Below are positions 19,347 to 59,787 of a stretch of 64,000 nt of DNA, piece after piece. Position 1 is the first letter of the stretch. Each line of letters begins with the position of its first letter. A program made the position numbers and the translations under genes. The stretch covers positions 53,779-117,778 of the forward strand of contig MFXH01000016.1 in NCBI GenBank assembly GCA_001788795.1, read 5' to 3'. Source of the stretch: Candidatus Peregrinibacteria bacterium RIFOXYA2_FULL_41_18 (GTDB lineage Bacteria; Patescibacteriota; Gracilibacteria; UBA1369; UBA12470). The notes under the pieces were generated by a model. That model was not told where the DNA came from, ran no database searches, and saw nothing but the letters and a program-made list of their open reading frames with translations.

Positions 19347-19400
19347 TTATAGAAATTATGTACGGAGAAAATATAAATCAGGGCGACTGATTTAGCAAAC

Positions 19401-19457
19401 GGCATTCTGCATTCTGCATTCGGCATTCGGTATTCGGTATTCGGTATTCGGTATTCG
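19401..19457. repeat. 7-bp degenerate tandem repeat (ATTCTGC/ATTCGGC/ATTCGGT)
   Basis: ggcattctgcattctgcattcggcattcggtattcggtattcggtattcggtattcg, about 8 units. Confidence 0.9.
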
Positions 19458-32450: not shown

Positions 32451-32500
32451 ATAGTTTATAACTGATAACTTGTAGTTTGAAGAGAAAATTTTTCTCCTTC

Positions 32501-32543
32501 ACTATGTCACTATGTCACTATGTCACTATGTCACTATGTCACT
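32501..32543. repeat. 8-bp tandem repeat (ACTATGTC), about 5.4 units
   Basis: actatgtc x5 + act, immediately followed by acttctaatacttcttcaacttcccctac. Confidence 0.95.
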
Positions 32544-52961: not shown

Positions 52962-53600
52962 ATGCTTAACGTTTTAATTATTACTAAAACGCCGAGAGCA
53001 ACAGGAGATGTCAAACAAGCTCTAAGAAACGTAAACATCAATTCGTTCATGAGCCATCCGGAAGATTTTGAAAAAATCTGGCTCACTCAATTCCATTTGG
53101 TTTATATCGAACCACCGATGGATGAATTCGAATACGAACAATGTATAAAAAAAGTAAGAGGGTCAAACTGGCAAATACCAATTCTACTGCACCACAAGCC
53201 TGAAAAAACAATTCACAACTCATGCATTCTTCCGCAATCAACAAAACCAAAAGAACTCGCCCTTCTAATGAGATCGATCGCACGACCAAAAACCATAACT
53301 CCAAAAATAAGAATCAAATATAAAGATCTGGTATTGGACATCGATAAAAGAACTGTAAAACGAGGCGAAAAAACACTGGAACTGCGCAATAAAGAATTCT
53401 GCATGCTCGAACTGCTCATGGAAAAAAAAGGCCGCACAGTCACCAAACGAGAATTGACGGAAATATTATGGGATAGCCAAACAACATTGCTCAGCAACAC
53501 TCTCGAATCCCACATGTCGAAATTGCGTAAAAAAATCGACCGAGAATTCAAAAGAAAACTAATTCATACAGTGCCATTTGTCGGATATAGATTGGAGTGA
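52962..53600 (+). CDS. OmpR-family winged-helix response regulator with degenerate receiver domain
   Basis: C-terminal Trans_reg_C (LELRNKEFCMLELLMEKKGRTVTKRELTEILWDSQTTLLSNTLESHMSKLRKKIDREFKRKLIHTVPFVGYRLE); N-term REC-like fold lacks acidic pair and has E at expected phospho-Asp. Confidence 0.87.
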   Translation: MLNVLIITKTPRATGDVKQALRNVNINSFMSHPEDFEKIWLTQFHLVYIEPPMDEFEYEQCIKKVRGSNWQIPILLHHKPEKTIHNSCILPQSTKPKELALLMRSIARPKTITPKIRIKYKDLVLDIDKRTVKRGEKTLELRNKEFCMLELLMEKKGRTVTKRELTEILWDSQTTLLSNTLESHMSKLRKKIDREFKRKLIHTVPFVGYRLE

Positions 53601-53793
53601 GAAACACAGAATCTGACATTTCTAGCTCTGCAACTCTATTTTCTGTAATTCTGCAATTCTATTCCACAACAATTCGACCATTTACGCTTGTGAACTAGAC
53701 TCCACTATTCCAATGGCACAAGCTCTTTACTAATTAAAAACATGATGCTAAAGTGCGAATACCCTTTGATCATTTAACATAAAATACAAAAAT

Positions 53794-54867
53794 ATGACCA
53801 CACCAAATTTCACAGTAAGCACTACTGCAACGGCAAACGATATAAAGCTTAAGGATCTTGTTGAAAATCTCCTTATCGTATTGAACGAAAAAGAGAAAGA
53901 TATTATCGAAAAAAGATTCGCGCTTCACAATCAGCCGAAACAAACTCTCGAACAAATCGGCAAGAAATTTTCTGTAACACGCGAACGCATCAGACAAATA
54001 GAAAAAAATGCACTTAAGAAGCTCACGCGAAACGCGCAAAACACAAATCTTAAGATTTTGAACGCATATGCAAAAGAAATTATAAAGAAAAATGCCGGAA
54101 TAATGACGGAAGAATCAATCACCGCAGCAGTAATAAACACTCTTCCAAACATTTCCACAACAGAGATAAACGAGCTTAAACTTGCTCTTGCTTTGGATGC
54201 AGACTTAGACAAGATTCCAAACACAATCAATTACGAACCAAATTGGAGACTCAAAACAATTCCATTCCAATTAATAAAAGAGATTACTCAGGTTGGCATC
54301 AAGGTTCTAAATGAAAACAATGACATCATGGAACCAATTGGCTTGGCAACAAAAGTCCTAGAGAAGCTTTCTCAAAAGACAGATCCGGAACTTATCACGA
54401 ACACGCTAAGAATCGACAAAAGAATAAAATTCACCGAGAACAATTCAATAGGACTAAAAACATGGAGGCACATCAACCCAAGAACACTCCGTGATAAAAT
54501 AAATTTCATTCTTGCAAAAGAAAACAAACCTTTGCATTTCGTGGAAATTTCAAACCTTATTACTGAATATCAATTCGACAATAAGACCGTAAACACACAA
54601 GCTGTTCACAACGAACTTATCAGAAACAAAGATTTCGTCTTAATCGGCCGAGGAATTTACGCATTATCGAAATGGGGATATTCGGAAGGAACAGTATCGG
54701 AAATTATCGAGAAGATATTGGCAGGAGGCCGCGTACTTACTCGTGAAGAGATAATCAGCGAAGTGCTCAAACAAAGACAAGTTAAAACTATCACAATCTA
54801 CTTGAACCTCAAGAACAAACCTTACTTCAAAAAAGTCGGAAAAGATTCATACACTCTGGTAAAATAA
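53794..54867 (+). CDS. Sigma-70 region 4-like HTH fused to HARE-HTH-type C-terminal domain
   Basis: LNEKEKDIIEKRFALHNQPKQTLEQIGKKFSVTRERIRQIEKNALKKL (sigma region 4.2); C-term PLHFVEISNLITEYQFDNKTVNTQAVHNELIRNKDFVLIGRGIYALSKWGY. Confidence 0.8.
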   Translation: MTTPNFTVSTTATANDIKLKDLVENLLIVLNEKEKDIIEKRFALHNQPKQTLEQIGKKFSVTRERIRQIEKNALKKLTRNAQNTNLKILNAYAKEIIKKNAGIMTEESITAAVINTLPNISTTEINELKLALALDADLDKIPNTINYEPNWRLKTIPFQLIKEITQVGIKVLNENNDIMEPIGLATKVLEKLSQKTDPELITNTLRIDKRIKFTENNSIGLKTWRHINPRTLRDKINFILAKENKPLHFVEISNLITEYQFDNKTVNTQAVHNELIRNKDFVLIGRGIYALSKWGYSEGTVSEIIEKILAGGRVLTREEIISEVLKQRQVKTITIYLNLKNKPYFKKVGKDSYTLVK

Positions 54868-54870
54868 CAT

Positions 54871-55596
54871 CTACAATTCCTTAGCTCTTTCATAGGCCGC
54901 GCAAGCGGCCTTTTTTATAACTTCTTTAAACTTACCATCATCGAGAACTTTCAAAGCCGCTTCGGTGGTCCCACCTTTTGAAGCAACTTTTTTTATCATC
55001 TCGTTATAATCGTCGCCATTCGCAGCCTGCAATGCTCCATAAACAAGCTGATTCAAAACCCTTCGTGAAGTTTCCGCATCAAATCCAAACTCATTGGCGC
55101 ACTCATTAAGAGCCTGCAAAAAAGCATACAAATAAGCCGGCCCAGAACCGCTTAGAGCTGTCATTTTATCTATTTCATCATCACTCAAAACTTCAATCGC
55201 AATACCGAATTTTTCAAGTAAATTTTCAACAAAAATCTTGTCTTCCTCACTCACGCGACCACACACAAAAGAACTCACACTTTTCCCAACTTTGGCACCA
55301 AGATTTGGCATCACACGAACAGATCTCTTCGGCAAATCGGCCAACTTAACACCCGCCATAATCGAAACCACCAATTTATCCTTAAAATCAACTTTCATCT
55401 CACGAAAAGTCTGCGGTTTAACGGCAAGCAAAATACAATCAGCCTCTCTTACAAGAGCTTCAACGGAATCTACAACTCTTATCCCAAGCGCTTCAACTTT
55501 TTCATAATTCGTATCATAACCAATCAACTCTTCACCATGAAGAAATCCCGCAATCGCACCACCCATAACTCCACAACCTATAATTCCAATTTTCAT
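54871..55596 (-). CDS. proC: Pyrroline-5-carboxylate reductase
   Basis: KIGIIGCGVMGGAIAGFL; CILLAVKPQTFREM; VRVMPNLGAKVGKSVS; ALSGSGPAYLYAFLQAL; TEAALKVLDDGKFKEV. Confidence 0.95.
   Translation of the reverse strand: MKIGIIGCGVMGGAIAGFLHGEELIGYDTNYEKVEALGIRVVDSVEALVREADCILLAVKPQTFREMKVDFKDKLVVSIMAGVKLADLPKRSVRVMPNLGAKVGKSVSSFVCGRVSEEDKIFVENLLEKFGIAIEVLSDDEIDKMTALSGSGPAYLYAFLQALNECANEFGFDAETSRRVLNQLVYGALQAANGDDYNEMIKKVASKGGTTEAALKVLDDGKFKEVIKKAACAAYERAKEL
54894..54917 (+). terminator. Rho-independent terminator inside the 3' end of proC
   Basis: aGGCCGC GCAA GCGGCCt TTTTT; GNRA tetraloop then U-tract on plus strand 27 bp after stop of the sigma4-HARE gene. Confidence 0.8.
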
Positions 55597-55597
55597 A

Positions 55598-56767
55598 TTA
55601 TCTTATTAAATAATCAGAAGAAACTTGCCACTTGTAAGTCGTCAATTCGCGTATTCCCATCGGCCCTCTGGCATGCAACTTCTGCGTGCTTATTCCGATT
55701 TCCGCACCCAGTCCGAACATACCGCCGTCGGTAAAACGCGTTGAAGTATTCACGTAAACAACCGCTGCATCAACTCTCTCGGAAAACTCTCTCGCATGAG
55801 ACTTATTTGAAGTCAAAATCGCCTCCGAATGCTTGGAAGAATATTTGGAAATATGATCTATTGCCTCATCGATATTACGAACTATTTTTACAGACATTTT
55901 TAAAGATAGGAACTCCTTGCCATATTCGTTACAAACTTCAACTCCGACTTCCTTCAGTTTTGGCAATAATTCTTTTAAAAATCTATCTGCAACCTTCTTA
56001 TGAACCAATAAGGTATCAAGCGCATTGCAAACCGATGGACGTGAAACTTTTGCATTAAAAACGACAGAAGCGGCTTTCTTAATATCAACCTCGTTATCAA
56101 CATAAGTATGCACAACTCCAGCACCGGTTTCTATCACTGGGATTCTGGAGTTTTCACGCACCATATCTATAAGACCTCTGCCACCTCGCGGAATAACAAC
56201 ATCAATATATTTATTCGCCTTAAGCATCTCTTTAACAATCGCACGATCCGTTCCAAGAAGCACAACACAATCACGTGGCAAACCGGCGTCTACAAGCGCG
56301 GAAACGATAATCGAAACAAGAACCTTATTTGTTTGATAAGCTTCGCTACCACCTCTTAAAACGGCACAATTACCAGATTTAACACATAGAGCCGCGACAT
56401 CCACAGTAACATTCGGCCTAGATTCATAGATCACACCAACAACACCAAAAGGAACAGAAACTTTTTTCAAATGCAGACCATTCACTTCACGTTTATCAAG
56501 CACACGACCAAGAGGATCTTCCATCTCAACAATCTCTTTCAGACTATCCGCCATAGCAAAAATTCTAACTTCATCAAGCATCAAACGATCTCTCATAAGA
56601 TCATCCGCACACATTTTCGCGATATCTTTTTTATTCGCATTTATGATTTTATTCGCATTTTTCTTGAGATTTTTCGCCAAAACTCGCAAGAACTTATTGC
56701 GCTTTGCAACAGATTCGTTCGCAAGTTCCCTCCCCGCCTCTACAACTTTTTGTAACATTTTTTCCAT
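55598..56767 (-). CDS. proA: Gamma-glutamyl phosphate reductase
   Basis: VSVPFGVVGVIYESRPNVTVDVAALCVKSGNCAVLRGGSEAYQTN; IPRGGRGLIDMV; STRFTDGGMFGLGAEIGISTQKLHARGPMGIRELTTYKW. Confidence 0.96.
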   Translation of the reverse strand: MEKMLQKVVEAGRELANESVAKRNKFLRVLAKNLKKNANKIINANKKDIAKMCADDLMRDRLMLDEVRIFAMADSLKEIVEMEDPLGRVLDKREVNGLHLKKVSVPFGVVGVIYESRPNVTVDVAALCVKSGNCAVLRGGSEAYQTNKVLVSIIVSALVDAGLPRDCVVLLGTDRAIVKEMLKANKYIDVVIPRGGRGLIDMVRENSRIPVIETGAGVVHTYVDNEVDIKKAASVVFNAKVSRPSVCNALDTLLVHKKVADRFLKELLPKLKEVGVEVCNEYGKEFLSLKMSVKIVRNIDEAIDHISKYSSKHSEAILTSNKSHAREFSERVDAAVVYVNTSTRFTDGGMFGLGAEIGISTQKLHARGPMGIRELTTYKWQVSSDYLIR

Positions 56768-56784
56768 AACTTACGACTTACGAT

Positions 56785-58029
56785 CTACAACATAACAACA
56801 TTGTCCGCATGAATCACCTCTTTTTTATTTCTCTTATCTTCCAATTTCAAAGCTTCGCTCAATTCATCAGAAGAATAATTCACAATCCCAACCGCTAAAT
56901 TTTCTCCACGTTCATTATACACATCGACCGTATCGCGTTTCTCAAACTCGCCTTCAAGACCTTTAACACCAACCAAAAGCAAACTCTTTTTACTCAAAAG
57001 AGCTTCCGCGGCACCATCATCAACAACAATTCGCGAAAACGAAAGCGCACCTGCAGTAAGCCATCTTTGGAACCCCTTAAGACCTTGTTCTTGGGCAAAA
57101 AACTTCGTCCCTTCAAACGCTCGATCCATCACCGTATCAACCAAATTCTTTTTCTTCTTTCCATTTATAACAAAAGTCTCAATTCCGGCTTTCGTCGCCA
57201 ACTTGGCCGAATTTATTTTACTCACCATACCACCAAGCCCATTTGAACTAACTGATTTACCACACATCTCATAAGTTGCTTCTGTTATAATATCAACCTC
57301 CTTTATAACTTTGGCATCTTTATTAAGAGTAGGATCGCAATCGCACAAGCCATGTATTGAAGAGCAAATCACAAGCTTCTTCGCTCCCAACATTACTGCA
57401 AGAAGAGTCGCAAGTTCATCATTATCACCAAACCGCAACTCTTTATCGGCAATCACATCATTTTCATTAACAATTGGCACAATACCGCTACTAAGAAGCT
57501 CGGACATGACATTTCTAACAGATAAAAACCTCTTTCTGTCCGAAAAATTTTCCCTTTCAAGCAAAATCTGCGCCACCTTAACGCCCTCATTGCCAAAAAA
57601 CTCAGAATAATAATGCATAAGCCTAGCCTGTCCGATTGAGGCAAGAACTTGTTTTTGTAAAATCTTATCTTTTATAAGCGCCCCATCAAAAACCTCACGA
57701 CCGGACCCAACAGCACCTGAGCTCACAAGCACAATATGCCATCCTTCACGCCTGAGAAGAGCGATTTCACTTGAAAGCATTCTTAAAACATTTAAATCAA
57801 GTTCATTATCGGAATCCAGCAAAACTTGAGTACCAACCTTAACAACCAGTATACCTTTTGAGCGGTTTTGTGATAAGTATTCAAAAAAATCTTCTTTCAG
57901 AATCTTAAAAGATTTACCGACTTTTCGAGCCGGAATCTTGCCCGACCTAACATACAAATAGACAGTTCTAACCTGCACACCAAGCATTTTCGCAACATCT
58001 TCCGTACTGAAAAATTCAAAATCAGACAT
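56785..58029 (-). CDS. proB: Glutamate 5-kinase with N-terminal excisionase/MerR-like HTH
   Basis: N-term FFSTEDVAKMLGVQVRTVYLYVRSGKIPARKVGKSFKILKEDFFEYL; then LVVKVGTQVLLD...VLVSSGAVGSGREVF, PIVNENDVIADKELRFGDNDELATLLAVMLGAKKLVICS; C-term PUA-like. Confidence 0.93.
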   Translation of the reverse strand: MSDFEFFSTEDVAKMLGVQVRTVYLYVRSGKIPARKVGKSFKILKEDFFEYLSQNRSKGILVVKVGTQVLLDSDNELDLNVLRMLSSEIALLRREGWHIVLVSSGAVGSGREVFDGALIKDKILQKQVLASIGQARLMHYYSEFFGNEGVKVAQILLERENFSDRKRFLSVRNVMSELLSSGIVPIVNENDVIADKELRFGDNDELATLLAVMLGAKKLVICSSIHGLCDCDPTLNKDAKVIKEVDIITEATYEMCGKSVSSNGLGGMVSKINSAKLATKAGIETFVINGKKKKNLVDTVMDRAFEGTKFFAQEQGLKGFQRWLTAGALSFSRIVVDDGAAEALLSKKSLLLVGVKGLEGEFEKRDTVDVYNERGENLAVGIVNYSSDELSEALKLEDKRNKKEVIHADNVVML

Positions 58030-58057
58030 GTGAGTGAATTAAGTGCTCGCCTACATG

Positions 58058-58077
58058 ATAGTGATAAATAGTGACAA
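58058..58077. promoter_or_regulatory. Tandem decamer direct repeat upstream of proB
   Basis: ATAGTGATAA ATAGTGACAA (58058-58067, 58068-58077), 9/10 identical, 10-bp phase. Confidence 0.5.
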
Positions 58078-58087
58078 AAGCAACTTT

Positions 58088-59295: not shown

Positions 59296-59787
59296 TTAAA
59301 TATTACGCCTACCTTCACTTGTTCTACCACATGACCTACTCACAGCAACTCTCGGTTCAGATAAAGGAACACGTCTTTCACGTACAGACTGAACTACTGG
59401 TTCTCGAACCTCGACATCTATTGCATTAGCAGGACTAACTACAGCAGGTTCAACTGCCCTAGTAGTAGCAACTTCTGCGACGGAAGAAGGGAACCTTTGC
59501 ACCGGCCTTGACCCAATTTGCCCAGAAACATCGGATGCAGCTTTTCTCGTTGCCAAAACCTGTTTTAACAAATCCAACACTTCTGATCCAAATTCTTGCG
59601 ACCAACCACCTTGATCAAGGAATTCACTAAGTCTGATAACTTCAGTACTTGTTAAAAGCCTTACTCTTGCAGAAACTTCTCTTTCCTGTGGACGTCCTTT
59701 TCGCAACGCATCCAGCAAAGACGTTCTATGTTCATCTGTTAACGCAGCACGAATACCTGTCCTCGGTCTATCTAAGCGGTTTGTCAT
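59296..59787 (-). CDS. Hypothetical protein, Arg/Val/Ser-rich C-terminal half
   Basis: 163-aa ORF, low-complexity C-terminus (VATTRAVEPAVVSPANAIDVEVREPVVQSVRERRVPLSEPRVAVSRSC); divergent to 917-aa gene. Confidence 0.5.
   Translation of the reverse strand: MTNRLDRPRTGIRAALTDEHRTSLLDALRKGRPQEREVSARVRLLTSTEVIRLSEFLDQGGWSQEFGSEVLDLLKQVLATRKAASDVSGQIGSRPVQRFPSSVAEVATTRAVEPAVVSPANAIDVEVREPVVQSVRERRVPLSEPRVAVSRSCGRTSEGRRNI

Follow-up and report, generated by a model that had tools for sequence, protein, structure and literature searches.

A glutamate 5-kinase fused to an excisionase-type DNA-binding domain in a family of Peregrinibacteria: a probable trigger enzyme with a candidate operator in its own promoter

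The proB gene located in the analyzed stretch of 64,000 nucleotides from Candidatus Peregrinibacteria bacterium RIFOXYA2_FULL_41_18 (referred to as the window) encodes a glutamate 5-kinase extended at its N-terminus by a winged helix-turn-helix (HTH) domain of the HTH_17/excisionase type (HTH-ProB), and the full fusion was detected in all three genomes of the family examined, representing three genera of Peregrinibacteria. In each of these genomes, the proB promoter features a two-copy 10-bp direct repeat (TTRTCACTAT x2), representing a candidate operator. This conserved direct-repeat element in the proB promoter is new here. As a single polypeptide that joins a metabolic enzyme to a DNA-binding domain, HTH-ProB is built like a trigger enzyme. 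We consider it probable that the protein indeed acts as one, namely as a glutamate 5-kinase that keeps its active site intact and would repress proBAC from these repeats by its own HTH, in a ligand-modulated manner. The features concerned are listed in Table 1.

Table 1. Features of the proBAC region, with positions referring to the window.
Feature	Position	Strand	Basis or detail
HTH-ProB fusion gene	56785..58029	(-)	single ORF, domain profiles, full length kept in three genera
N-terminal HTH_17/excisionase-type winged HTH, codons 1-56	57862..58029	(-)	PF12728, TIGR01764
Domain junction, codons 57-59 (S/T-K-G)	57853..57861	(-)	alignment
Amino-acid kinase (glutamate 5-kinase) domain, residues 60-289	57163..57852	(-)	PF00696, TIGR01027
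PUA domain, residues 333-403	56821..57033	(-)	PF01472, 72.1 bits
proA, glutamate-5-semialdehyde dehydrogenase	55598..56767	(-)	NF001221, 514.6 bits (cut-off 289)
proC, pyrroline-5-carboxylate reductase	54871..55596	(-)	TIGR00112, 183.7 bits; P5CR_dimer PF14748, 97 bits
Candidate operator, tandem direct repeat TTGTCACTAT followed by TTATCACTAT, 10-bp period	58058..58077	(-)	
Candidate -35 hexamer TTGCTT, 17-bp spacer	58078..58083	(-)	
Candidate -10 hexamer TATCAT, overlapped by second repeat	58055..58060	(-)	

The open reading frame starts with ATG and encodes 414 amino acids without an internal stop. By the equivalog test, its product is a glutamate 5-kinase, since TIGR01027 matched residues 61–412 with 336.8 bits (cut-off 186, E 1.6e-100), and the catalytic and substrate positions K64, S104, D191, N203, and K271 were found to be conserved in an alignment to the E. 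coli G5K structures 8zpj and 2j5t and to the relatives. Together with the AA_kinase and PUA domains, this bears out the complete ProB, comprising a kinase and a PUA-like region, claimed in an earlier note on this DNA. Judged by its profile matches, the protein also carries a bona fide HTH_17 domain: Pfam HTH_17 (PF12728) covered residues ~6–56 (52.6 bits, E 5.4e-14, above the cut-off of 27), and the NCBIfam family TIGR01764 ('excise') covered residues 6–54 (43 bits versus a cut-off of 28.8). The same note had described the N-terminus as excisionase/MerR-like, of which the excisionase/HTH_17 part stood for residues 6–56 and the MerR part did not, the match to MerR (PF00376) being weak (22.2 bits) and under the cut-off of 28.2. 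Furthermore, a MerR effector/dimerization domain is absent, the remainder of the protein being assigned by Pfam to the kinase and PUA domains. With a sub-cut-off score and no such domain, HTH-ProB is not a MerR regulator as far as its domain profiles tell.

Only a few residues link the two domains, as the HTH extends to about residue 56 and the kinase opens with its first strand at about residue 60, and at this junction LSQNR (residues 52–56), K58, and G59 are invariant in the three genera. AlphaFold models of two sequences reached pLDDT values of 35 and 53, too poor for the domain arrangement. HTH-ProB resembles E. coli-type ProB in having complete AA_kinase and PUA domains and in retaining the active-site residues, but differs from it by the 59-residue N-terminal HTH extension. 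The substitution D107N (with E143A) has been used to relieve proline inhibition of E. coli ProB (PMC10534643); all three fused proteins carry an asparagine (Asn161) at the corresponding position, where Asn, His, or Ser is also present in some of the unfused relatives. The interpretation of N161 as a sign of transcription replacing allostery was dropped because of the occurrence of Asn, His, and Ser in these unfused proteins.

A search for the fusion in close relatives, as proposed in the earlier note, recovered it at full length in two more genera of this family, namely in Candidatus Peregrinibacteria bacterium GW2011_GWF2_43_17, which was the sole return of an exact peptide-word scan of genome contigs, and in a further genome (G001). 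The HTH-ProB proteins of the two relatives are 85% and 64% identical to that of the window. Within the class, 117 out of 359 genomes yielded a ProB match with an E value of 1e-20 or lower. Nearly all ProB matches of these 359 genomes that lie outside the family begin near residue 60, the few beginning earlier being weak or running through stop codons. Among 384 genomes sampled from the phylum, only two (G000 and G002) matched from residue 1. No match from another family of this class, or from the phylum sample, credibly extends into the HTH, and the unfused ProBs whose DNA was inspected feature short or unrelated sequence ahead of the kinase. The matches listed for plasmids, phages, and viral contigs included none with the fusion; two apparent N-terminal extensions in phage contigs (from query residues 19 and 29) contained no HTH when translated. 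As far as sampled (359 class genomes and the phylum sample of 384), the fusion is a family-level innovation. The closest unfused ProB (46% identity; L037:1504-3296, genome G295) originates from another family of the order and is directly followed by a proC-like gene, with proA not in between.

The earlier reading of the start at 58029 as that of one polypeptide is supported by the uninterrupted ATG-initiated frame and by the length of 414 residues, which is identical in the three genera and aligned without a gap. No ATG, GTG, or TTG occurs from codon 25 to codon 70 of the window's gene, in which the kinase begins at about codon 60 and only ATA60 and CTG61 are found near that point; a separate intact kinase therefore cannot start at a usual codon. 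Possible internal starts in the relatives (GTG at 61–62 in GWF2_43_17 and TTG at 52 in G001) are not shared. Production of a separate kinase from an internal start, which the note had raised against its own reading, was rejected as far as sequence tells, since no internal start codon is common to the three genes, and an assembly artefact was ruled out by the presence of the fusion in three genera.

On the same strand, proB is followed by proA and then by proC, and proBAC together with two genes upstream is syntenic in the two other genera. The TIGR00112 score of proC is slightly under the cut-off of 196.75. Two plus-strand regulator genes convergent to proBAC (52962–54867), also syntenic in the three genera, encode a response-regulator C-terminal domain protein and a sigma-70 region 4 protein with a long C-terminal part. 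On the other side, an ORF of 163 amino acids (59296–59787, minus strand) without a Pfam match lies upstream of a nitroreductase gene.

The suggestion that the enzyme regulates its own operon gained support from the conserved direct repeat, which was found in the proB promoter of every fused genome and in no other class genome searched, while the regulation itself we infer. The repeat reads TTATCACTAT followed by TTGTCACTAT in GWF2_43_17 and TTATCACTAT followed by TTAGCACTAA in G001. In all three genomes, the repeat block is conserved against diverged surroundings, starts at -47 or -48 from the proB ATG, takes up the spacer of a promoter resembling the sigma-70 type, and reaches into its -10 box. 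The candidate -35 hexamers of the relatives are TTGCCT with a 17-bp spacer (GWF2_43_17) and TTGACT with an 18-bp spacer (G001, read from the sequence), and the candidate -10 hexamers are TATCAT and TAAGAT, respectively. In two of the three promoters the -35 box is weak, and because of its weak -35 box the proB promoter fell below the threshold of a generic promoter scan and was not listed.

Over a 26-bp promoter element, 21 of the 26 columns are identical in the three genera, compared to 12 for the best of 40 dinucleotide shuffles and 13–16 for non-coding sequence upstream of four other syntenic genes. Control upstream regions overlapping upstream genes reached up to 21 identical columns because they are coding. 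Allowing up to three mismatches, the element was detected in three of the 359 class genomes, these being exactly the fused ones with one site each, immediately ahead of the proB ATG, and in none of the other 356. The repeat also has a single site in the organism's own 1.24-Mb genome at up to 3 mismatches, by which a dispersed repeat family was ruled out. Half-site-like 9-mers are common in the AT-rich window (27 found versus 15.7 expected), so that single repeats mean nothing. A perfect 8-bp tandem array, (TCACTATG) x 5.6, is located at 32499–32543; its letters resemble the half-site, but it was rejected as a related operator because its period differs and nothing links it to proB. A 7-bp tandem repeat (CGGCATT, 8.3 copies) is located at 19400–19457.

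The HTH_17 proteins BldC, Xis, and RdfS align head to tail on DNA, and BldC binds 9-bp direct repeats as well as longer arrays in which each protomer takes up one turn of the DNA (PMC5859096, PMC11963761). As HTH_17 proteins act on direct repeats, a site such as the 10-bp repeat in two copies would be expected for this domain. The sole excisionase-type PDB sequence match of the HTH was Gp37 (4j2n), which has been named Pukovnik Xis (PMC11963761). BldC, Pukovnik Xis, and RdfS share the HTH_17 profile with HTH-ProB, and the direct repeats bound by BldC are spaced by about one helical turn, but these three are small stand-alone DNA-binding proteins without an enzyme. In our own gap-free alignment, Lys26, Thr27, Trp31, and Lys33 of BldC correspond to Arg21, Thr22, Tyr26, and Arg28 of HTH-ProB, all of them invariant, and the base-reading Arg30 of BldC corresponds to Leu25, so that the specificity of base recognition must differ from that of BldC.

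In the mechanism proposed, the HTH_17 domain of ProB would bind the 10-bp tandem repeats located between the -35 and -10 boxes of the proB promoter. A single ProB oligomer would place two of its HTH domains head to tail on the two repeats, in a BldC-like manner. Bound HTH-ProB would block RNA polymerase, and proBAC would be repressed by its own first enzyme. The ligand state of the enzyme, most likely with the end product proline and possibly with glutamate or ATP, would alter its fit to the DNA. The binding of this particular repeat, the repression, and the ligand we infer, proline being the most plausible signal by the logic of the pathway. Against self-repression it has to be considered that the fusion and the candidate operator occur in three genomes of one family, so that their co-occurrence may simply reflect shared descent. 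Also to be weighed against it are Leu25 at the position of BldC Arg30, the frequent half-site-like 9-mers, the poor AlphaFold models, and the two weak -35 boxes. We conclude that HTH-ProB most likely represses its own operon.

It is unlikely that another regulator binds the repeat, for example the 56-residue HTH_17 protein encoded on contig C18, with the HTH of ProB acting elsewhere or as an assembly module. The genome does encode three other HTH_17 matches, one of them being this stand-alone protein of 56 amino acids; however, within the genome the element is confined to the proB promoter, within the class it is found solely together with the fusion, and ProB is the only one of the four HTH_17 proteins that can be recognised as a proline-pathway enzyme.

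Quite improbable, in our opinion, is activation of the promoter in the fashion of MerR, in which the fusion would bend the spacer DNA to aid RNA polymerase, for example at plentiful glutamate. The position of the site between the -35 and -10 boxes indeed matches that in MerR promoters, and the HTH fold is related to MerR, as reflected by the weak Pfam match. MerR promoters have spacers of 19–20 bp. Classical MerR sites are palindromes (PMC5859096), whereas the proB promoters feature direct repeats in spacers of 17–18 bp. Overlap of the site with the -10 box and near-optimal spacers (17, 17, and 18 bp) point to occlusion of RNA polymerase and not to MerR-type activation.

The HTH is maintained by strong purifying selection, as strong as that on the kinase: between the window's gene and that of GWF2_43_17, dN/dS was 0.055 for the HTH and 0.075 for the kinase, with dS being about 1. 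Residues expected to face the DNA (Q19, R21, T22, Y24, Y26, R28, K36, G38, K39, and S40) are invariant in the three genera at an identity of 61–64%. A structural or vestigial extension without a regulatory role, with the repeat conserved otherwise, for example for promoter strength, would fit the restriction of the HTH to three genomes and the ProBs without it elsewhere in the class, but is very improbable given purifying selection at a synonymous distance near 1, invariant residues at DNA-facing positions, and a non-random repeat.

Trigger enzymes are few and originate mostly from model bacteria, and a description of one in proline biosynthesis was not found in the open-access papers searched. 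PutA is catabolic, namely a proline dehydrogenase/P5C dehydrogenase with an N-terminal DNA-binding domain of the ribbon-helix-helix type, and BirA and NadR differ from HTH-ProB in the enzyme, the HTH type, and the form of the operator. PutA has been described as a trigger enzyme and single-target regulator, and BirA and NadR are also listed as trigger enzymes (PMC8249747). HTH-ProB resembles PutA as a proline-pathway enzyme with a DNA-binding domain and, as proposed here, a single target in its own operon, whereas it is the first biosynthetic enzyme and carries an HTH_17 domain. With BirA (biotin ligase) and NadR (NMN adenylyltransferase), it shares the fusion of a biosynthetic enzyme to a DNA-binding domain and, as proposed here, regulation of the own pathway.

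A further-reaching interpretation is offered tentatively, as a real possibility: the committed enzyme of proline biosynthesis may be a proline-responsive repressor of proBAC, uniting kinetic and gene-level feedback in one allosteric protein, and may, by capturing an excisionase-type HTH in a lineage with small genomes, have become the counterpart of PutA on the biosynthetic side. As the candidate operator is explicit, a single purified protein and a short DNA fragment would suffice to test the hypothesis. If it is true, direct-repeat binding by HTH_17 would no longer be confined to small stand-alone proteins but include a fused enzyme, HTH-ProB would be a biosynthetic mirror of PutA, and a streamlined genome would have merged feedback by allostery and feedback by transcription within one protein.
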